From: Synechococcus sp. UW140
Lineage (GTDB): Bacteria; Cyanobacteriota; Cyanobacteriia; PCC-6307; Cyanobiaceae
Assembly (NCBI GenBank): GCA_945877115.1
Contig: CAMCQR010000016.1
Location: forward strand, 1-38,282
Direction: 5' to 3'
DNA: 38,282 nucleotides
Each line of letters opens with the position of its first letter. Positions within the stretch are counted from its first letter, which is position 1. Below the pieces are notes generated by a model, which did no database searches, was not told the DNA's origin, and saw only the letters and a list, made by a program, of their open reading frames with translations. A program made the translations under genes and the position numbers. Positions 4,653 to 15,510 of this stretch are shown in pieces.

Positions 4653-5258
4653 TTGAACCCCGTCCTTGCTCGGCCTGCCCGCGGCCGAACCCTCGTTTCA
4701 AAACCAATCCCAATTCGATCCCACTCTTCTGGACGATTAATACCGCCGGATGCCGAAGCTGGCTTCCTGCTTCCCCTAACGGTCGTGGCCTCCATGGGGC
4801 TGTTGCTCTCCAGCCTTTCGCTCCAGGCGACGTCCCTGCAAAGCCAACTTCGCTTTCGATCCCAGCTTCAGGCCCGCTCCGATCAGGATCAACTGAGCCA
4901 GGCAGCCCAGAGGTTGGTGGGCGAGATCAATCTTCACCATCCCTGCCTGCTGCACCTGCCTTCACAAAATTGGACCCGGGAGGGGATCGATTGCATTGAT
5001 CTCAACCGAGCCACCTGGCTGATCCAAGGGGGCAATGGATCCCCCGCCGATGTCCGTACCCTCGCTTGGCAGCCTGATGCCAATGGTCAGAAGGTCATGC
5101 TGCTGCTGGCACTGCCCAAGGCCCCAGGGGGCACAGCCTCAGGGAGCACAGCCCCAGGGGGCACTGGCCGGCGCGGCTTATTCGCGATTGGACTCGGCGG
5201 TGATCCCGTCCGGGCTTTGTCCATTGCAGAGCAGGGCCTGCTGGGGGCCGAATCATGA
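4653..5258 (+). CDS. PilX/GspK-like minor pilin (module 1, gene 1)
   Basis: The 201-residue protein has one hydrophobic segment at residues 37-58 (GFLLPLTVVASMGLLLSSLS). It is preceded by a basic leader and followed by a predicted helical stretch, which is the pilin-like layout. After a possible prepilin-peptidase Gly37, position +5 is Leu rather than the usual Glu, as in many PilX/GspK-type initiating subunits. The soluble part has a Cys pair (HHPCLLHL, GIDCIDL) and a short low-complexity loop (GGTASGSTAPGG). The start is TTG because no ATG or GTG is available before the hydrophobic segment. Its stop overlaps the next start (ATGA), indicating translational coupling. The pilin-like nature is inferred from topology and gene context; sequence conservation is weak. 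Confidence 0.65.
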   Translation: MNPVLARPARGRTLVSKPIPIRSHSSGRLIPPDAEAGFLLPLTVVASMGLLLSSLSLQATSLQSQLRFRSQLQARSDQDQLSQAAQRLVGEINLHHPCLLHLPSQNWTREGIDCIDLNRATWLIQGGNGSPADVRTLAWQPDANGQKVMLLLALPKAPGGTASGSTAPGGTGRRGLFAIGLGGDPVRALSIAEQGLLGAES

Positions 5259-5647
5259 CGATGGCAGAAGTGACACTTGCCGCCGTGATCCTGATGGGCT
5301 CGGCTTCGGCCTCGGCGCAAATCTGGGCCAGTTCAATGGCGGGGATCCACAATGCCCAACAACGGCAGCTGGCTTTGAACCGGATCGATGGCGAGCTGAT
5401 CCTGCTCCAGAACCACTGGCAACAGCTGGCCCAGCTCGGACCCCTAGCCCAATCCTGTCGCACCGCCAGTGAACAACTCTTGGACAATCTCCAGGAGACC
5501 CCACTGGCTTCTGGCGTGGATCGCCAGCTGACCCTATTAACAGAAGAGGAGGGCCTGATGGTGTCGCTTCAAGATCGCGACGAACCCCAGGCCCGCCGCG
5601 ACCAACTGGTCAAACCGGCGGCCCTGCACCTCTGTGAGGAAGCTTGA
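5255..5647 (+). CDS. PilV-like minor pilin lacking a leader peptide (module 1, gene 2)
   Basis: This 130-residue protein begins MTMAEVTLAAVILMG. It aligns with the mature N terminus of PilV/GspI-type pilins (F-T-L-x-E-V-x-x-A-x-x-I-L) with Met in place of Phe+1 and Glu exactly at position 5. There is no basic leader and no in-frame start just upstream. The rest is helical and polar, with two Cys. The ATG overlaps the TGA of the preceding gene, so it is probably translationally coupled. In the family such subunits sit at the pilus tip or assembly-priming complex in the inner membrane. How it would mature without prepilin-peptidase cleavage is open. Confidence 0.6.
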   Translation: MTMAEVTLAAVILMGSASASAQIWASSMAGIHNAQQRQLALNRIDGELILLQNHWQQLAQLGPLAQSCRTASEQLLDNLQETPLASGVDRQLTLLTEEEGLMVSLQDRDEPQARRDQLVKPAALHLCEEA

Positions 5648-5649
5648 GC

Positions 5650-6153
5650 ATGGGCAAAGCAGCACAACCCCACTCCACCGGGTTCACCCTGGTAGAGCTA
5701 CTCGTGACTCTTTCTGTGCTGATGCTGCTGGCCGGCCTGGCCATGGCCTACGGCAGCGCCGGTCTGGCCAGGTTTCGTGTGGAAACGGCCAGCCGCCGCG
5801 TCCTCCTGGGCCTGGAAGCAGGCCGTACTGCGGCGCTGCAAAGTGGCCAACCCTGCAGCCTCCATCTGGGCGAAAAGGGTTGGGAGGCCCCAGCCTCCAG
5901 CTCCCTGGCCGCCTGTGCCGGGGTCAACGTGCCGCTGGTTGAGGGCATCGAATCTTCGGTAGTCGAACTGGAGCACAACATGCCTGCAACCGTTCGCTTC
6001 ACCAGCAATGGCCTAATTCTTGATGGGGGAACCGTGGTCCTGCGCTCGGATGGCACCGAACTGGAACGCTGTGTGGTCGTGTCCCTGCCCCTGGGGGTGA
6101 CACGGGTCGGGCGCATGGCGTCCGGATCCTGCCAAAGGGATACGAGTCTTTAA
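5650..6153 (+). CDS. FimT/GspH-like minor pilin (module 1, gene 3)
   Basis: The 167-residue protein has a classical prepilin N terminus, leader to Gly11 then FTLVELLVTLSVLMLLAGLA, with Glu at +5, followed by a globular domain of the GspH/FimT type. I chose ATG 5650 over the in-frame TTG 5644: GAGGA at 5636-5640 is 9 nt from the ATG but only 3 nt from the TTG. The stop of the previous gene lies between them. Cys residues in the mature part (QPCSLHLG, AACAGV, ERCVVV, GSCQR) suggest disulfides after export. By family it would be an assembly-priming minor pilin of a type IV pilus or related secretion/transformation pseudopilus. Confidence 0.85.
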   Translation: MGKAAQPHSTGFTLVELLVTLSVLMLLAGLAMAYGSAGLARFRVETASRRVLLGLEAGRTAALQSGQPCSLHLGEKGWEAPASSSLAACAGVNVPLVEGIESSVVELEHNMPATVRFTSNGLILDGGTVVLRSDGTELERCVVVSLPLGVTRVGRMASGSCQRDTSL

Positions 6154-6163
6154 GGGAAAACCG

Positions 6164-6727
6164 ATGCAACAAAGTGACCCGATGGAGTCCAGCACCAAGG
6201 GCTTCAGCCTGGTGGAACTGCTGCTGGCACTCGGCTTAGCCCTGATGATCTGCGGGGGAGTCGCGAAGATGCAGGTGTACCTTCAACGCAGCGCCGATCT
6301 GGCCATGCGGGTGATGCGCGAGCGACGCTTCCAGGACAGGGCTCTGGAACTGATTCGCTCGGATGTGCTGCGGTCCCAAGCCATCGCTCTCGATGGCGCC
6401 GCATCGGGTCCCTGCGGACTGGGTGGGAGGCGATCGGTGCTGGCCTTGAAAACAGAGGTCGGAACCATCGTCTACAGCCAGGGAAGCGCCCCGAGTTCCA
6501 TTTGGCGTGGAGAGGTTCTGATGCGCTGCGGTCCAGCCTTTTCGCTGTCTGGGGAGCCTAGTGTGGGTCAATTCCAGAATCGCGTCGTGCTAGATGGACT
6601 GCAAACCGAGGGGTTTACCGCCCAAAGCCTTGATGGAATCAGGTTGAAATTGCGTCTAAGACAAAACTTTATGGGCCCAAGTGGCCCCCAGCTCATTGAG
6701 AATGAGATTCTCACAACCATGCGCTAA
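6164..6727 (+). CDS. PilW/GspJ-like minor pilin (module 1, gene 4)
   Basis: 187 residues with prepilin leader ending at Gly13, then FSLVELLLALGLALMICGGV with Glu at +5. The long amphipathic helix and a beta-rich C-terminal half (ending in a QLIENEILTTMR stretch) resemble PilW/GspJ subunits. Two Cys lie in the soluble part (GPCGLGG, MRCGPA). It starts 10 bp after the FimT-like gene. It closes the first module; a 100-bp gap separates it from module 2. Confidence 0.82.
   Translation: MQQSDPMESSTKGFSLVELLLALGLALMICGGVAKMQVYLQRSADLAMRVMRERRFQDRALELIRSDVLRSQAIALDGAASGPCGLGGRRSVLALKTEVGTIVYSQGSAPSSIWRGEVLMRCGPAFSLSGEPSVGQFQNRVVLDGLQTEGFTAQSLDGIRLKLRLRQNFMGPSGPQLIENEILTTMR
6697..6713. repeat. Perfect inverted repeat at the end of the PilW-like gene
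   Basis: TGAGAAT, 3-nt spacer, ATTCTCA, lying over the last codons of the gene. No T-run follows, so a terminator role is uncertain; it could protect the 3' end of a processed transcript. Confidence 0.5.
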
Positions 6728-6827: not shown

Positions 6828-7343
6828 GTGAGCCTGACCAGGCCAAGCTTGTTTGCCCGAAAACGGAGGCCGCAGGCAACCGTCTCAGTTCAGTCTGGCT
6901 TTGTGCTGATCTTTGTTCTGCTCGCAGGCTTGATCCTGATCATGACGGCCGTAAGCCTGGTGTCTCGGGCCACAAGCGGCGCCACTACCACGATCGGTGA
7001 ATCAAGAACCCAAGCAGCCCGGATGGCCGCGGAGACTGGATTTAATACCATTATGGCTAGAATAAACAAAGAAGATATTGACACTTTCAGTACATTTATA
7101 GACTCAGAAAATAAGATACTGTGCGCACCGACTACGAGCTATACGATCGTTAACTTCAGTTTCAATCCGGATTTGATCCCAAACTGCGATCCAACCAACG
7201 ACATTGGCATAGATATCAATATATCAATTCGTGGCAAATTAATAGCGGGATCTAATGATTATTTCCAAGACATTACCCGCACCCTAAGAGTGTGCAAGCC
7301 AATCGCCAATCCAACTCAAGTCAGGGTAAGATCTTTCAGCTAA
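6828..7343 (+). CDS. PilX-like minor pilin (module 2, gene 1)
   Basis: 171 residues starting at GTG, preceded by GGAAG at suitable distance. Basic leader to Gly24, then FVLIFVLLAGLILIMTAVSL; position +5 is Phe, not Glu, as in PilX-type proteins (PilX_N-like helix with SRATSGATTT and ETGFNTIMARIN). The C-terminal half (from about 7040) switches to AT-rich codon use. Cys residues near CAPTTSY, PNCDPTND and RVCKP may form disulfides. It mirrors the first gene of module 1 in position and N-terminal type. Confidence 0.7.
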   Translation: MSLTRPSLFARKRRPQATVSVQSGFVLIFVLLAGLILIMTAVSLVSRATSGATTTIGESRTQAARMAAETGFNTIMARINKEDIDTFSTFIDSENKILCAPTTSYTIVNFSFNPDLIPNCDPTNDIGIDINISIRGKLIAGSNDYFQDITRTLRVCKPIANPTQVRVRSFS

Positions 7344-7348
7344 AATCC

Positions 7349-8047
7349 ATGAAATTAATATATCATAAAAAACAAGTCATCAAAGTTGCTCCATCGCACA
7401 TTGTAAGAACGTATCAAAAAAATAAAGTATTCAAGCTTGCGGCAAGCCAACATAAAAACCTTGGCTCTTCAATGATTGAACTACTGATTGCCACAGTTGT
7501 GGCCCTTTTTGCAGCCAGTGCGGCGGCCCAAATAATCAATAATCTCAACAATAGCAGCCTTAATCGTCGAGCTGGATCCGCAAGCGCCATTGATGTCGCC
7601 ACCAACAATGATTTACAGTGGTTTCAGCAGTACGCTCAGTATTGGCGCCTACTTAAAGGTCCCTATCTTAGTCTTCCAATCGAGGTCACAAAGACTGACG
7701 TTGCATATACTAAAATACAAAATTCTAACGAATCCAAAGTATATGACCCCGATGATCCATCCGAATGTGTTGGCAACAACATGGCTATTTCCTTCCTTCA
7801 AGATGCCGCCAATTCCTCAACATATATCTCTCCAATCAATAATCCACCTAACCCCATTAGCTCCAACGGATCATCCCAAATTATTACCCTTCCCAACGTG
7901 GCATCCATTTACGTACTGACTAGACAAATACAACCTGGCGCAGTAACAGGCACCCTAATGATAACCTATACATTAACAAGGTCTGGGGTAATACAATTCA
8001 GGAAGAATTCTTCTGTGTTTCTACCAGCATCAGGTTGGTGCCCATGA
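7349..8047 (+). CDS. Divergent pilin-like protein, AT-rich (module 2, gene 2)
   Basis: 232 residues from ATG 7349, chosen because it follows the preceding TAA by 5 bp; an upstream in-frame ATG at 7292 would overlap that gene by 52 bp. An unusually long basic leader (about 39 residues) precedes G-SSMIELLIATVVALFAASA, with Glu at +5 of a non-standard +1 Ser. The soluble domain is Asn/Ser-rich (NNLNNSSLN, NPPNPISSNGSS) with two Cys. Base composition is clearly lower in GC than in the flanking genes. By position and the ATVVALFAASA helix it corresponds to a PilV/PilW-type subunit, but the soluble part is not recognisable. Confidence 0.65.
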   Translation: MKLIYHKKQVIKVAPSHIVRTYQKNKVFKLAASQHKNLGSSMIELLIATVVALFAASAAAQIINNLNNSSLNRRAGSASAIDVATNNDLQWFQQYAQYWRLLKGPYLSLPIEVTKTDVAYTKIQNSNESKVYDPDDPSECVGNNMAISFLQDAANSSTYISPINNPPNPISSNGSSQIITLPNVASIYVLTRQIQPGAVTGTLMITYTLTRSGVIQFRKNSSVFLPASGWCP

Positions 8048-8577
8048 TTCTAAACACGATTAGCAACTCTGCCCATGCCAGTCGGTCCAAGACGGGTTTC
8101 ACAGTGGTTGAACTTCTAGTTGCAGTTTCAATTTTGGGGATATTGGGCTCCCTTGCCTTTCGATCGATGCTCGGATTTACCGAACAACGCCGTCTTCGCA
8201 ATGCCGCCTTGGAAGTGATCGGCATGATCCAGGAAAAACGCGCCTTGGTGATGGCCCAACGACTCACCGTACCCGCAGCCTGCATGTCACTTGACCCAGC
8301 CGATACCTCCAGCCCAATCCGTCCAGACAAGGGCATGACCTCCGGAGTCACTGGCTTAGAGGTCATAACCGAAGCCGGTGGCACCCCCGATCCCCTTTGC
8401 TTCACACCCGAGGGGTTGGTACTGACCCCCCGAACCCTTGTGCTCAGATCACCAGCGGTTGTCGACCAAGGCGATTGGTGTGTCGTCGTGAAACCCCTAT
8501 TGGCCCAACCCCATCTCGATTGGAGGCCCAGTGGCCAAAGCGGTTGTCGCTTTGATGCTGGAGGAGGTTCCCTCTGA
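8044..8577 (+). CDS. FimT/GspH-like minor pilin (module 2, gene 3)
   Basis: 177 residues from ATG 8044, which overlaps the previous TGA (ATGA). Leader ends at Gly18, followed by FTVVELLVAVSILGILGSLA with Glu+5 and a basic segment after the helix (TEQRRLRNAALEV), typical of GspH/FimT proteins. GC content returns to the level of the rest of the window. Three Cys are present in the soluble part. It is the counterpart of the module 1 gene at 5650. Confidence 0.85.
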   Translation: MILNTISNSAHASRSKTGFTVVELLVAVSILGILGSLAFRSMLGFTEQRRLRNAALEVIGMIQEKRALVMAQRLTVPAACMSLDPADTSSPIRPDKGMTSGVTGLEVITEAGGTPDPLCFTPEGLVLTPRTLVLRSPAVVDQGDWCVVVKPLLAQPHLDWRPSGQSGCRFDAGGGSL

Positions 8578-9296
8578 TGACGGGGCAAGGGGTGATGGGA
8601 CCCAGGATTCGGCGTCAACCAAGGCCATGGCGACGAACAAGCCATTGGCATAGGCAGGCGATCGACCGGCGCAATGGCTTCAGCTTGGTGGAGCTCATCA
8701 TCGTCGCCGGGATGACAGCGGTCGTTCTGGCTGGTCTTGGCGCCCTCATCTTGGTTTCGGATGTGAAAGTAGGGCGCCGCATCAATTCGATTCAGGAAGC
8801 CCAGGAACAGTGGGGTCGGGCGGTCATCTTTATGAGAAATGAAGTGGCCGAAGCCGCCACCCTCGAAACGGCCCTGTCATCCGCTGATTATCCCTGTAAC
8901 GGCGACCTACCCAATCCCGTCCTCGTAGTCAAGGGGCCCAATGCGGCTTGGACCATCATTTATGGCGTACGCAACAGGGCTGTGGGTGAAGAAGGGCTCT
9001 ATCGCGGCCCCAAACTTTTGGTACGTTGTGGACCCCAACCCTTGGAAAATAGCGTATCACCACCCCATGCCACTTATGGCCACCTTGACCCGACCAAGGT
9101 GAACCTGCTGCCCCAATCCCTGACCGTGCTCCTAGACCGCCTACCCGCCAACACCCCCCTGCAGGTGCAGTTGCTGGGGGATCCGGCCAACGGTCCGGTC
9201 CAGGACGCCCAGCTCACCATCACAATGCAGGCTGGCACCGACAGCACCTTCGGCGGGGACCAACCCTTCCGTGTGCATGTCCAACGCAATCCCTGA
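8577..9296 (+). CDS. PilW/GspJ-like minor pilin (module 2, gene 4)
   Basis: 239 residues. The ATG shares one base with the preceding TGA (TGATGA), again indicating coupling. A 34-residue Arg/Trp-rich leader precedes G-FSLVELIIVAGMTAVVLAG with Glu+5; the helix continues to QEAQEQWGRAVIFMRNEVAEA, typical of PilW. The beta-rich C-terminal domain has Cys pairs (DYPCNGD, VRCGPQ) like the module 1 PilW-like protein, with which it shares the LxVRCGP/LMRCGP motif. The TPR-glycosyltransferase gene follows after 8 bp. Confidence 0.82.
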   Translation: MTGQGVMGPRIRRQPRPWRRTSHWHRQAIDRRNGFSLVELIIVAGMTAVVLAGLGALILVSDVKVGRRINSIQEAQEQWGRAVIFMRNEVAEAATLETALSSADYPCNGDLPNPVLVVKGPNAAWTIIYGVRNRAVGEEGLYRGPKLLVRCGPQPLENSVSPPHATYGHLDPTKVNLLPQSLTVLLDRLPANTPLQVQLLGDPANGPVQDAQLTITMQAGTDSTFGGDQPFRVHVQRNP

Positions 9297-9304
9297 CATT
9301 AACC

Positions 9305-11674
9305 TTGGACATTGACGTTGTCGCGATAGGCGCCTTGGCCCCTGATTCCCCCCCCAGCGAAACTCAGATCGTTCTCAGGGCCACCGAACTGGTCACCCAA
9401 GGCGATCTCGATCAAGCCGAACAGCTGCTGCGCCAATTGGTGAATTCAGGCTGCTCCCTGCCCATGGCCTGGATGAACCTGGCGGTGCTCGTTGGGGATC
9501 GGGGCGATAAGGAGGAGCGCCTACGACTGCTCCATCACGCCCAGGAGTTGGATCCCAATAATGCCCAGGTGCTGCTCAACCTGGCAACCGCCTATCTGGA
9601 CAACAGTGATTCCGACGGCGCCGAAGCGCTACTCCGCCAGGTGCTCAGCCTAGATGCCGATCTGGTGGAAGCCCACCACGCCCTGGCGGTGGTGCTGACC
9701 AAAGCTGGACGCCCTCAAGAGGCCAGGCTGGCCTTGGCCACCGCCCTGCAACTCGATCCACAACATTGGCAGAGCCTGGATAAACTCACGGACCTAAAAT
9801 CGGAAGAAGATTTGAGAATTGCCGAAGCTGGCTATCGCCGGCTGATCACAGCCGAGCCCGACAGTGGATTTCTGCACCGCAAACTTGGGGTCAACCTAGG
9901 GCACCAAAATCGTACGCAAGAGGCCATCGAGAGTTATCGCATTGCCCTGAATCTCGATACGGCCGATGCAGGATCCTTGATCGGCCTGGGCCTGATGCTG
10001 CTTAATCAAGGCCAAGCGGATGAATCCCTGGTTCTCTTTTTGCAGGCGTTGGCTCTTGACCCCGACAATGCCGATGCCCTGGCCTGTAATGGATTAGCGC
10101 TTCACACCCTGGGGGATCAAGGCCAGGCCATCGAAATGCTCGATCGCGCCTTGGTGGCCATGCCGGAACGGGTTGATATTTTAACAGTCAAAGGACAAAG
10201 CCACGAGGAAATCGGCCAATTAGACCAAGCTTTGGCGAGCTATGAGAAAGCCTATCAGCTTGACCCAAAAGATGTCGGTATTCGATATAATTTAGCCAGT
10301 ACCTTAAGGCTGCGTGGTGATCTTGACAAAGCACGCATCGCCTTTGATGAGCTTCTCTTGGAAAAACCCCTAGATCTGACCCTCTTCAGCGCCCAGATGT
10401 TTTTGTATTCGGTGGCTTCTGAGCGATGGGCTGCGGCGGCCCTGGCGCTGGGCCAACGATTCTGGCCCGAGTGGACCCAGGTGTTCGCCCCCGAGATGGA
10501 CCCAGCGAGCAATATCAGCTCGTTTCTGGATCCAGCCCCGCGCACCATCGGCACCCTGGTGGACAGCGCCGATCCCTGTCGCCTTGGCAAGGTGCGCATT
10601 GGCGTGCTCAGCGGCGATCTGGGCGGTCACGTGGTGGGTGGTTTCCTGTCTGCCTTTCTGGAGCACTACGACCACGACAGATTGCATGTCGAACTGCTGT
10701 CGATGCGGCGTCGCTACGAATCGCGCAGTGAGGAGTTGCTGGCCCTGGCCGATGGCGCCTTATCCCTTGAAGGGATATCCGATCCCGAGGCCCGCGAGCT
10801 GCTGCGAAGTCGGAATTACGATCTGATCTTAGAAACCTCAGGATATACCCGACACGGTGGCATCAGGCTGCTGGCCCAACGTTGCGCGCCGGTTCAATGT
10901 CATTACATCGGTTATCACGCCACCACCGCCCTTCCCGAGATGGATTATTTTCTCGGTGATGCAGAAACGGCCGATCTGGCCTTTCAGGATCAATTCAGCG
11001 AACAGCTTTGGCAGCTACCCAGACCCTGGCTGGCCTACCCCAAGCATCAGGTCTTTCCGCAGGCCGAGCAGCTAGCGGCCACCGACATGCCCGTGCTGGG
11101 GGCCTTCAGTCAAGTGGGAAAGATTCGGGAAGAAACCCTCAGCTTCTGGGGAGCCGCCCTTAAAAAAGTCCCGGACAGCCTGCTGGTGATCAAGGACCGA
11201 TGCACCCTGGATCTCCAAGTTTGTGTGCGCATCGCCGACGTGCTGGCCAAGGACCACGACATCGATCGGCAGCGACTGCGGTTTTTGCCGATGCTGGGGG
11301 AATGGAACGACCATGTGGATTGTTACAACATTCTTGACGTGGCCCTGGACACGACCCCCTGGAGCAGTGCCACCACCGGTTTTGAAGCCCTGGCCATGGG
11401 GGCACCCTTGGTGGCAATCAAGGGAGGCTGCACGGCAGCTCGCATGAGCACCTCCCTGGTCCAGGGCGTGGGTCGGCCGGAATGGGTGGCTCAGACCCCG
11501 GCGGAGTTTGCCTCGATCGTGGCCGACCTCTGTGCCGATCTGCCGGCTCTGCGGGCCGGCAAGCGAGAACGGCAACGGCAAGCCCAGAACAGTCTGTTGT
11601 TTGACGGCATGGATCTGGCCCACCACCTGCAGGAGGCCCTGATCGCGATGGCTAGCAAAGGGAAACGGCCCTGA
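9305..11674 (+). CDS. TPR protein with SPINDLY-type O-GlcNAc transferase domain (GT41 family)
   Basis: 789 residues. Residues about 25-370 are tandem TPRs (ALDPDNADALACNGLALHTLG, YQLDPKDVGIRYNLASTL). Residues about 435-785 match the GT41 catalytic region: RIGVLSGDLGGHVVGGF, DLILETSGYTRHGG, PVQCHYIGYHATTALPEMDY and DVALDTTPWSSATTGFEALAMGAP all follow the SPY/OGT consensus. Such enzymes transfer a sugar from a nucleotide donor to Ser/Thr of proteins in the cytoplasm; the acceptor is recognised by the TPR superhelix. The start is TTG with no clear Shine-Dalgarno, 8 bp after the minor-pilin cluster, so it is probably co-transcribed. Pilins as acceptors is my inference from context only. Confidence 0.88.
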   Translation: MDIDVVAIGALAPDSPPSETQIVLRATELVTQGDLDQAEQLLRQLVNSGCSLPMAWMNLAVLVGDRGDKEERLRLLHHAQELDPNNAQVLLNLATAYLDNSDSDGAEALLRQVLSLDADLVEAHHALAVVLTKAGRPQEARLALATALQLDPQHWQSLDKLTDLKSEEDLRIAEAGYRRLITAEPDSGFLHRKLGVNLGHQNRTQEAIESYRIALNLDTADAGSLIGLGLMLLNQGQADESLVLFLQALALDPDNADALACNGLALHTLGDQGQAIEMLDRALVAMPERVDILTVKGQSHEEIGQLDQALASYEKAYQLDPKDVGIRYNLASTLRLRGDLDKARIAFDELLLEKPLDLTLFSAQMFLYSVASERWAAAALALGQRFWPEWTQVFAPEMDPASNISSFLDPAPRTIGTLVDSADPCRLGKVRIGVLSGDLGGHVVGGFLSAFLEHYDHDRLHVELLSMRRRYESRSEELLALADGALSLEGISDPEARELLRSRNYDLILETSGYTRHGGIRLLAQRCAPVQCHYIGYHATTALPEMDYFLGDAETADLAFQDQFSEQLWQLPRPWLAYPKHQVFPQAEQLAATDMPVLGAFSQVGKIREETLSFWGAALKKVPDSLLVIKDRCTLDLQVCVRIADVLAKDHDIDRQRLRFLPMLGEWNDHVDCYNILDVALDTTPWSSATTGFEALAMGAPLVAIKGGCTAARMSTSLVQGVGRPEWVAQTPAEFASIVADLCADLPALRAGKRERQRQAQNSLLFDGMDLAHHLQEALIAMASKGKRP

Positions 11675-11683
11675 AGCCCAGCC

Positions 11684-12118
11684 TCAGACGCGGGGTCCGC
11701 CGATCGTGCAAGTCAATTCTCCCCTGGTTGACACCGAAATCGTGACAGCCACCCCGCCCCAGTTGGTCACTTGGAGGCAACGCAGGCCTCTGTTCACTGG
11801 ACCATAATCACCCCAGGAGCCCTCATAGCGGGAAATACTGGTGAGATTGCAGGCTCGGCCGACCGCGCTTTCCGGCGCGGCACCAACCCCACCGGAGAGC
11901 ACCCAGGTGGCACATTCCTTAGCCAGGCCGAGCTCCTGACCAATGACGGCCCCGGCCCGTACGGCGGCCCTGGCCCGAAAATATTGGGGCAGAGAGAGGG
12001 CTGAAAGCAGACCGACGATGGCCACAACGATCAGTAGTTCCATGAGGCTGTAGCCGCTGGAGCCAACACGGACTCTCTTCAGACTGCCAAGCAATTCCAA
12101 TTGAAGTTTGGTCTGCAT
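11684..12118 (-). CDS. Type IV pilin-like protein (PilA paralogue)
   Basis: 144 residues with a 22-residue basic leader, then G-YSLMELLIVVAIVGLLSALS with Glu+5 and mature Tyr+1. The soluble part contains QELGLAKECATWVLSGGVG and four Cys (KECAT, RACNL, LRCLQ, LTCTI). The paralogue at 12332-12766 has Cys in the same four places, suggesting two conserved disulfides. Tyr at +1 instead of N-methylated Phe is unusual but known among pilins. It converges on the glycosyltransferase gene with a 9-bp gap. Likely a pilus subunit or minor variant of the major pilin. Confidence 0.88.
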   Translation of the reverse strand: MQTKLQLELLGSLKRVRVGSSGYSLMELLIVVAIVGLLSALSLPQYFRARAAVRAGAVIGQELGLAKECATWVLSGGVGAAPESAVGRACNLTSISRYEGSWGDYGPVNRGLRCLQVTNWGGVAVTISVSTRGELTCTIGGPRV

Positions 12119-12331: not shown

Positions 12332-12766
12332 TCAAGCAACGGTACAGAGGAGACCACCGAACGAACTGACGTTGATGGTGGCTGATCTTCCAGAGCCAGC
12401 AGTGATTTGAAGACATTTCAGGCCACTGACAAGCTGATCGAAAGTGGTCCAGGTAGCAATGTAGTTACCACCCGTGCTGGCATTGCACAAGGTGCTAGGA
12501 GCCACGCCCACACCACCAGAGGCGACGAAGGTGGCACATTCCTTAGCTAGACCAATCTGCTCACCGATGGAGGCACCGGCGGCGGCGGCGGCCCGGGCAG
12601 CCAGATAACGGGGCAGAGCGATGGCGGAGAGGATGCCGACCACAGCCACGACGATCATGAGTTCCACCAAGGTGAAGCCCTTGGCGACCAGGGAGCCCTG
12701 CCTGCGCTTGCCAATGCTGCGAAGCAGCTCAATTTGCAGACGACTTTTGATGTGAGTTGAGTTCAT
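12332..12766 (-). CDS. pilA: Type IV major pilin-like protein (PilA)
   Basis: 144 residues with a 30-residue basic leader ending KG, then FTLVELMIVVAVVGILSAIA, a textbook class III prepilin-peptidase site with Glu+5. The mature helix continues LPRYLAARAAAAAGASIGEQ. The small soluble domain has four Cys (KECAT, TLCNA, LKCLQ, LLCTV) matching those of the neighbouring paralogue, and is rich in Ser/Thr/Gly (ASTGGNYIATWTT). With its own candidate promoter, structured leader and strong terminator it is the best candidate for the major pilin. Assembly would be by the PilB/C/D/Q machinery, which is not encoded here. Confidence 0.92.
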   Translation of the reverse strand: MNSTHIKSRLQIELLRSIGKRRQGSLVAKGFTLVELMIVVAVVGILSAIALPRYLAARAAAAAGASIGEQIGLAKECATFVASGGVGVAPSTLCNASTGGNYIATWTTFDQLVSGLKCLQITAGSGRSATINVSSFGGLLCTVA

Positions 12767-13291: not shown

Positions 13292-14179
13292 ATGTCGAGG
13301 CCCGCCTCCGTTTCCCAGGGAATCAGTGCGCAGGCTGCTGCGCCGCCATCCAGCCTTTCGGCCCGCATGACCCGCTGGGGTGTGGTCATCGTGCTGATCT
13401 ATGCCCTGGTGGCCCTGCTTGTACCCCTGCTGATTCACCTCGGCTGGCTCGACGATCCCAATGCCGGCCTCGACAACCCCATCTATGCCCCGCCCAGCCT
13501 TAGCCACTGGTGCGGCACCGATCGCCTGGGGAGGGACGTCTGCACCCGCACCCTGGCCGGCAGCGGGGTGGCCCTGCAGGTGGTGGTGGTGGCCCTGTTG
13601 GTGGCCCTATTGATCGGTGTTCCCCTCGGCATGGCCAGTGGCTACCTGGGCGGCGCCGTCGACCGGGTCCTGGTGCTGTTGATGGACACCCTCTACACCC
13701 TGCCGGTGTTGTTGTTGTCCGTAGTGCTGGCTTTTCTGCTGGGCCGTGGCTTGCTCAACGCCGCCGCCGCCCTCTGCGTCGTATATGTGCCCCAGTATTT
13801 CCGGGTGGTGCGCAACCAAAGCGCCCAGGTCAAAGCCGAGCCCTATGTGGAAGCGGCTCGCTCCCTCGGCGCCGGACCGGTGTGGGTGCTGCGCCGCTAT
13901 CTGTTTCGCAACGTCATCACCTCGGTGCCCGTGCTGCTGACCCTCAATGCCGCCGATGCCGTTCTGGTGCTTGGTGGGCTGGGCTTTCTGGGGCTGGGGC
14001 TGCCCGAGACCGTGCCCGAATGGGGGGGCGATCTGCAGCAGGCCCTGACGGCCGTCCCCACCGGCGTCTGGTGGACGGCCCTTTATCCCGGCTTAGCGAT
14101 GTTTGTGCTGGTGTTGGGGCTTTCCTTTCTCGGCGAAGGCCTCGAACAATGGCTCTCGGGCCCGTCCCGTCGCTCCTAA
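13292..14179 (+). CDS. DppC-like ABC transporter permease (oligopeptide/nickel type)
   Basis: 295 residues with about six membrane segments and the binding-protein-dependent permease signature EAARSLGAGPVWVLRRYLFRN (EAA loop that docks on the ATPase), plus the DppC/OppC hallmarks GTDRLGRDVCTRTLAGSG and GFLGLGLPETVPEWGGDL. In this family it pairs with a DppB-type permease, two ATPases and a solute-binding protein. None of these is encoded next to it, so the partners must lie elsewhere. The last 4 bp overlap the convergent glycosyltransferase gene. Confidence 0.9.
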   Translation: MSRPASVSQGISAQAAAPPSSLSARMTRWGVVIVLIYALVALLVPLLIHLGWLDDPNAGLDNPIYAPPSLSHWCGTDRLGRDVCTRTLAGSGVALQVVVVALLVALLIGVPLGMASGYLGGAVDRVLVLLMDTLYTLPVLLLSVVLAFLLGRGLLNAAAALCVVYVPQYFRVVRNQSAQVKAEPYVEAARSLGAGPVWVLRRYLFRNVITSVPVLLTLNAADAVLVLGGLGFLGLGLPETVPEWGGDLQQALTAVPTGVWWTALYPGLAMFVLVLGLSFLGEGLEQWLSGPSRRS

Positions 14180-15510
14180 TCTTCCCGCTTTGCAGCCTCT
14201 GGAACGCCGAGCCCAACCAGGGCGGCCCCAATCGCCTGGGCCAAGGCCCCGAAATCCCCCCGCTCGCGCACCTCGCGCTGTAAGGCCGTAGCGATTTCGA
14301 GCCGTTCGGCTCGATGGTCCAGGTGTCCGTAGTAATCCATCTTGTGACGCAGTTCTTCGAGACTGCGATAGCTGATGGCCTCCGCTACCCCGGTGAGGGC
14401 CCCCAGCTCCCCTTTCCAATCGGTGAGGGGGAACCCTCCAGCCGCCGCCACATCCAGCACCCGGTTGCTGACAGCCTGGTCAAACTGCAAGGCGGTGATG
14501 TTGAGGCTGATCAGCGAGGAGCGATAAATCGCCGCGCTGGCGGCCACCGAGGCCGTAGCCGGATGGCCGCGCCGGGCCCCAACCGCTGGGGCTGGGGCTG
14601 GGGCTGGCCAGTTGGCGCAAAGGCGTTCGGCCTCGGGCCCGTAGAGATCGATGGGACGGTCCCCCAGACGCCGCAGCACTTCTCCCCGAAACTCCAACGA
14701 GTGACCGTGGGCGAGCGATCGGTAGTAGGCCTTAGCCGCCAACCGCTGCAGCGCCGAAGACCCGGGCCCACAGCACCGCTCGGCGTAGGCCAGGGTGGCG
14801 GGTTCCAGGGGGTGGTCGAACTGGTGCAAACGGTGCTGTAAATCAGCCTGCAGCTCCGACGCCAAATCATGGGGATGGTCGCCCCAGTCAAAGCCTGGAT
14901 GCACATGGCCGATGAAGCAAACCTCCCGGCGCAACGGGGCCCCAGCCGGTGGTTCGTAGGGCCCCTCGCCGATGGCATAAAGCGGCGATGTGGCCAGATT
15001 CAGGCTCCGCAGCTCCTGGCCATTGCGCGGCTCAAGACAGAAATGGTGGGAGCGGTGGCCGGTGGCGATGTAACTGCCCAGGGCAGCCTCAATGCGCTCC
15101 CGTGAAGAATGGGTGCTGAAGCAGTCCTCAAAATGCAGAAAAACCAGGGGCAGCCGGGCCTGTTCGTAGAGAAAGGTGCCCCGCACCAGGTCGAAGCCGG
15201 CTAGCAGGCTGATGGGACTAACAATGATCAGGGCATCGGCTTCGAGGCAGTCCAGCCGTTCCCAGAACAAGGGGCGATGGAGGACCACCTGGGCCACCCG
15301 ACCCAAAACCATCGGCGTCAGAGTCCCATCTGAAGACTCTGCCAAGGACCCAGCGCAGGATCCCGCCACCGATCCCGCGACGGATCCAGCGATGAAAGCG
15401 GTCGGATCCAGCAGGCTGATGCGATGGCCGGCCCCCACCAGGGCCCTGGAAATGGCGACGATCAGCCGCTGGTAAATCGGGGTGGGACTCTGCTCAAGAA
15501 CAAGGTGCAT
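14176..15510 (-). CDS. CgeB-like glycosyltransferase
   Basis: 444 residues. The C-terminal part (about 330-440) has the family pattern: SLISLNITALQFDQAVSNR, then VLDVAAAGGFPLTDWKGEL, then a YRSLEELRHKMDYY stretch and an RGDFGALAQAIGA end. This matches the GT-B second domain of CgeB/DUF3880-type transferases. The N-terminal half contains SPISLLAGFDLVRG and LVFLHFEDCFSTHS. Residues 41-60 carry a short repeat of AGSVAGSVAGSCAGSLAES that looks like a recently expanded loop. Donor and acceptor are unknown; in cyanobacteria such enzymes usually act in surface polysaccharide or glycoprotein synthesis. The ATG start is clear. Confidence 0.75.
   Translation of the reverse strand: MHLVLEQSPTPIYQRLIVAISRALVGAGHRISLLDPTAFIAGSVAGSVAGSCAGSLAESSDGTLTPMVLGRVAQVVLHRPLFWERLDCLEADALIIVSPISLLAGFDLVRGTFLYEQARLPLVFLHFEDCFSTHSSRERIEAALGSYIATGHRSHHFCLEPRNGQELRSLNLATSPLYAIGEGPYEPPAGAPLRREVCFIGHVHPGFDWGDHPHDLASELQADLQHRLHQFDHPLEPATLAYAERCCGPGSSALQRLAAKAYYRSLAHGHSLEFRGEVLRRLGDRPIDLYGPEAERLCANWPAPAPAPAVGARRGHPATASVAASAAIYRSSLISLNITALQFDQAVSNRVLDVAAAGGFPLTDWKGELGALTGVAEAISYRSLEELRHKMDYYGHLDHRAERLEIATALQREVRERGDFGALAQAIGAALVGLGVPEAAKRED

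Follow-up and report, generated by a model that had tools for sequence, protein, structure and literature searches.

Next to its PilA-type pilin genes, Synechococcus sp. UW140 encodes a family GT41 enzyme that is probably a soluble cytosolic glycosyltransferase acting on the organism's own type IV pilin. The gene lies at 9305–11674 of the window, by which we mean the whole stretch of 38,282 nucleotides analysed here. Its architecture, its catalytic residues, the lack of an evident transmembrane segment and a tight, long-kept linkage to pilins support this role. Pilin glycosylation by GT41 enzymes is already known; what is new is the separate descent of the window enzyme. The locus contains the following features:

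4653–5258, + strand: core pilin-locus protein of the lepA-linked set
5255–5647, + strand: core pilin-locus protein of the lepA-linked set
5644–6153, + strand: core minor pilin, GspH-like
6164–6727, + strand: core minor pilin of the lepA-linked set
6828–7343, + strand: probable accessory pilin-like protein, low GC (0.47)
7292–8047, + strand: probable accessory minor pilin, low GC (0.42)
8035–8577, + strand: minor pilin with a GFTVVELL motif
8577–9296, + strand: minor pilin with an N-terminal methylation motif, its stop 8 bp before the glycosyltransferase start
9305–11674, + strand: GT41 glycosyltransferase gene, TPR plus GT-B, 789 aa (ORF, Pfam, AlphaFold, PDB alignment)
9359–10363, + strand: TPR superhelix, residues 19–353, 20 helices forming 10 TPRs (AlphaFold secondary structure, Pfam TPRs)
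10592–11662, + strand: GT-B catalytic domain, residues 430–786 (Pfam, AlphaFold, residue alignment)
11684–12118, − strand: PilA-type pilin b, convergent with the glycosyltransferase, 9 bp between the ORFs
12332–12766, − strand: PilA-type pilin a

The first-pass annotation had called the enzyme a SPINDLY/OGT-type glycosyltransferase, and this assignment holds in both sequence and structure. The protein scores 102 bits with Glyco_transf_41 (PF13844), for which the curated cut-off is 25, TPRs cover residues 21–350 according to Pfam, and the nearest solved proteins by sequence are the Arabidopsis protein O-fucosyltransferase SPINDLY (SPY), human OGT (hOGT), T. terrenum OGT (TtOGT) and the X. campestris enzyme XcOGT. 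The AlphaFold model (mean pLDDT 89.9, pTM 0.82) predicts the TPR superhelix and GT-B fold of a GT41 member. Aligned with structures in the PDB, the model has SPINDLY as its top hit (Z 45), which is also the closest solved structure over the full length, followed by TtOGT (Z 43, rmsd 3.7 over 507 residues) and XcOGT (Z 40). No transmembrane stretch is evident in the protein (best 19-residue hydropathy 1.38), so the enzyme should be cytosolic. The TPR superhelix is presumed to be the acceptor-binding part. Judged from the sequence, the Asn ladder that binds the peptide backbone in OGT and SPINDLY appears incomplete in these repeats, so that acceptor binding may differ from that of the two known enzymes. 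The exact start of the gene is uncertain. Its ORF opens at TTG 9305, which may be used; the start is doubtful because an ATG 16 bp past the pilin stop, conserved in three 80%-identical relatives (L057–L059), reads ATA in the window (9326).

Residue roles in the active site were taken from the work on SPINDLY, in which mutation of K665 or H495 abolishes activity and Y744 is linked to donor fit (PMC9715652). The essential Lys and His are both kept in the window enzyme. K606 (SPY K665, hOGT K842), the GT41 catalytic Lys, is invariant across all 123 aligned domains, and H442 (SPY H495), Q531, H670 (SPY H728), T690 (SPY T748) and T691 are invariant within the window clade. Two positions differ from SPINDLY: the donor-pocket residue Y744 corresponds to W686 of the window enzyme, and S496 corresponds to V443. 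Trp occupies position 686, the equivalent of C917 in the hOGT pocket, in 25/25 members of the window clade, whereas OgtA has Tyr here, S. elongatus Ogt has Ala, and the nearest proteobacterial homologues mostly have Leu or Phe. Trp also occurs in 9 of 48 other GT41s, and the residue is thus clade-invariant, not clade-unique. Given the link between Y744 and donor fit in SPINDLY, neither GlcNAc nor fucose should be presumed as the sugar that the window enzyme transfers.

The ORF coordinates agree with the earlier description of an enzyme that begins 8 bp after the last minor pilin and faces two pilin genes, and the gene adjoins pilA as the pilA-linked Ogt genes of cyanobacteria do. No PilA-type genes other than those of pilins a and b were found in the genome, where a search for a further PilA locus returned weak matches only; 9305–11674 is likewise the only PF13844/GT41 gene found in these 2.7 Mb. 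That the sole GT41 adjoins the sole two PilA-type genes counts for a pilin acceptor. T2SSE ATPases (PilB/PilT-family) and secretins were found in the genome, so a pilus machine is likely present. Counting against the proposed role, the genome also encodes a protein of the Wzy_C type, and some members of that family are periplasmic pilin O-oligosaccharyltransferases. The oligosaccharyltransferases PglL/PilO/TfpO also glycosylate pilins, but they are periplasmic membrane proteins with a lipid-linked donor and do not correspond to the window enzyme.

Most genes of the neighbourhood have a GC content of 0.56–0.66, compared with 0.47 and 0.42 for the two accessory pilin-like genes, which keep only 43–46% identity in relatives with a 97% identical LepA. 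Judged by composition and identity, 6828–8047 is a part of the pilin locus that either changes fast or was imported. Further downstream, between dppC and trmH, lies a GT-B protein (Glyco_trans_1_2, 14176–15510) that is 79–89% identical in close relatives. It was considered as a part of the system and rejected, being kept mainly with trmH in those relatives and not with pilins.

In the pathway we propose, acceptor choice would fall to the TPR superhelix, the GT-B domain would use a nucleotide donor to add one sugar, and the pilin would be glycosylated before or during membrane insertion. The acceptor would most likely be the two PilA-type pilins encoded head-on, and possibly also the minor pilins of the operon; PilA is favoured over the minor pilins. 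In this proposal we infer the acceptor, attachment to Ser/Thr by O-linkage, the sugar, when it is added, and any influence on surface properties or on how the pilus assembles.

By analogy, three precedents count for a pilin acceptor: S. elongatus Ogt with PilA, the pilA-linked OgtA enzymes and FlmG. According to a 2025 review, many cyanobacteria have Ogt next to pilA, and the enzyme takes part in PilA glycosylation (PMC12288463); PilA is also reported to be a substrate of S. elongatus Ogt (Suban et al. 2022, as relayed in PMC12647202 and PMC9260433). Dedicated pilin glycosylation by a GT41, which had been put forward as a new case, is thus already known. Synechocystis has a glycosylated, uncleaved prepilin (PMC8546353). 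FlmG of Caulobacter, likened here by description and not by sequence, is a cytosolic TPR plus GT-B enzyme that serves an appendage subunit and binds it with its TPR part (PMC7591256); it differs from the proposed pilin enzyme in its flagellin acceptor and pseudaminic acid donor.

The OgtA type, for example Nostoc punctiforme ogtA, to which the sampled enzymes were assigned by architecture and pilA adjacency and not by direct comparison, shares the TPR plus GT41 architecture and, in 15 of the 17 cases that could be scored, lies next to pilA. Its GT domain, however, is only 25–29% identical to that of the window enzyme, and its pilA usually lies upstream on the same strand, whereas the PilA genes of the window are convergent. 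The S. elongatus enzyme (Synpcc7942_0051) also combines TPRs with a GT41 domain and has a pilA pair about 2.6 kb away, but its GT domain is 32% identical to the window's. It is the single GT41 of genome G179, which we take to be that of S. elongatus.

Pilin genes were mapped around the named relatives and in genomes of the same family, the Cyanobiaceae. Within the window clade, which belongs to this family, 21 of the 22 scorable members lie no more than 3 kb from a pilin gene, compared with 3 of 30 GT41s outside the pilin-linked clades (Fisher p = 2e-10, from rows that share descent and are not independent trials). The linkage exceeds chance, and in most members of the clade PilA is convergent with the glycosyltransferase. 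Co-occurrence of enzyme and pilins, proposed earlier as a check, was borne out in one direction only: most PilA-bearing Cyanobiaceae do without the enzyme, with a PilA-type pilin in 91 of 151 family genomes and a window-clade glycosyltransferase in only 7 (our own count). Three loci (L191, L202, L204) have the block of lepA, core minor pilins, PilA, dppC and trmH but lack the enzyme; the pilin locus is thus conserved, and the glycosyltransferase is accessory to it. This one-way pattern counts against a pilin role, as does the composition of PilA, which is unaffected by the presence of the enzyme. Ser/Thr-rich pilin domains had been taken as a sign of the substrate. The S+T fraction is 0.10–0.20 in the pilins of the window, and that of PilA is 0.236 in relatives with the enzyme against 0.220 in those without, an uninformative difference; Ser/Thr enrichment was accordingly rejected as an acceptor signature.

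It is somewhat unlikely that the acceptor is an accessory minor pilin of the enzyme's own operon (8577–9296 and neighbours) and not PilA. The enzyme abuts the last minor pilin in seven relatives, whose glycosyltransferases are 39–80% identical, and the accessory pilins of the window found no match in the three loci without the enzyme; both observations speak for such an acceptor. However, L033, L064, L077 and L081 have no detectable minor pilin directly upstream of the glycosyltransferase while PilA still adjoins it, and the precedent (PMC12288463, PMC12647202) is the major pilin.

We regard it as distinctly unlikely that the gene encodes a general OGT-like regulator of the cytosol, one that acts on many proteins and sits in the pilin island by accident or through co-regulation. 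Speaking for it, S. elongatus Ogt has several reported phenotypes, including phosphorus retention and aggregation (PMC4683255). The locus is, moreover, a variable island that receives other genes, and insertion into it could have produced the linkage between glycosyltransferase and pilin. Against this, the linkage persists even where the GT domains share only about 40% identity, is largely absent in GT41s outside the pilin-linked clades, and has counterparts in the GT41-C and GT9-like TPR enzymes that adjoin PilA too. A search for OGA (PF07555) gave no match, but neither did its control sequences, and the result counts neither way. It is highly improbable that the window enzyme makes an N-linked sugar like the GT41 enzymes HMW1C/NGT: NGT structures have the same fold (Z about 30), but OGT and SPINDLY rank well above them in sequence and structure (Z 45–43), and the N-terminal part is a superhelix of ten TPRs as in OGT and SPINDLY, not the non-TPR domain of HMW1C/NGT.

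Glycosylation of the organism's own type IV pilin is thus the reading we prefer, and the window enzyme appears to have come to it by a route of its own. In an unrooted tree of 43 rows, the window clade (support 100/100) nests within proteobacterial and other pilin-less GT41s; OgtA-type enzymes form a separate, well-supported clade, and S. elongatus-type Ogt stands apart again. For groups that were named after this tree had been seen, the AU test rejected monophyly of the window clade with OgtA (p = 0.0003) and with S. elongatus Ogt (p = 1.6e-5). The window gene was accordingly rejected as an orthologue of either, and common descent with these pilA-linked enzymes was not found. On these relationships we read the gene as a putative second, separately recruited lineage of pilin-linked GT41s and infer that it was gained by horizontal transfer, on a tree that is unrooted. 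No relatives of the enzyme were found in viral contigs. To the small number of bacterial GT41s for which an acceptor is probable, the window enzyme would thereby add a second, separately recruited lineage, which suggests that pilin glycosylation by cytosolic TPR-glycosyltransferases has been repeatedly established in cyanobacteria.

Other glycosyltransferases also stand beside PilA. In two genomes of the window's genus, a divergent GT41 with low TPR signal adjoins PilA in place of the window-type enzyme (L188:6464–8635 and L192:4836–6797). TPR proteins with a GT9-like C-terminal part lie beside PilA in four others (L193:6468–8285, L196:6851–8377, L197:4119–6272 and L199:7243–9492), the GT9 assignment resting on Pfam for L193 and on similarity and a model built from L193, L196 and L197 for L196 and L197. 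Similar TPR-GT9-like proteins were seen near pilA in L034, L035 and the S. elongatus-type locus L169 (12503–14869). A glycosyltransferase neighbour for every pilA was rejected as a rule: by these models, neither enzyme type lies within 2.5 kb in 34 of the 40 Cyanobiaceae loci retrieved for PilA, although in 4 of these 34 PilA itself was missed by the motif.

The wider pattern is a lead, not a rule. It is possible, though on balance we doubt it, that the position beside pilA in cyanobacteria is a slot refilled by unrelated TPR-glycosyltransferases, with OgtA-type, S. elongatus-type, the window's proteobacterial-type, divergent GT41 (L188, L192) and TPR-GT9-like enzymes (L193, L196, L197) as its occupants. 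If so, each enzyme would add its own sugar, and replacing the enzyme would also replace the pilus glycan, with phages or grazers as one possible source of selection. The same pilin locus with a different enzyme, or with none, offers natural comparisons for the role of pilus sugars and for donor choice in GT41 enzymes.

Some GT41 genes in the sample are of unusual size or arrangement. Rhabdochromatium marinum (L087, L088, L092) carries tandem arrays of GT41 genes, none of them near pilins, and Thiocystis violacea (L080:9440–17071) has a 2543-residue ORF with three GT41 domains, also not near pilins. Among the clade members and a close relative, the proteins of L036, L041 and L076 reach about 1100–1300 residues, and the N-terminal extension in L036 and L041 resembles, by eye, an FkbM-type methyltransferase.
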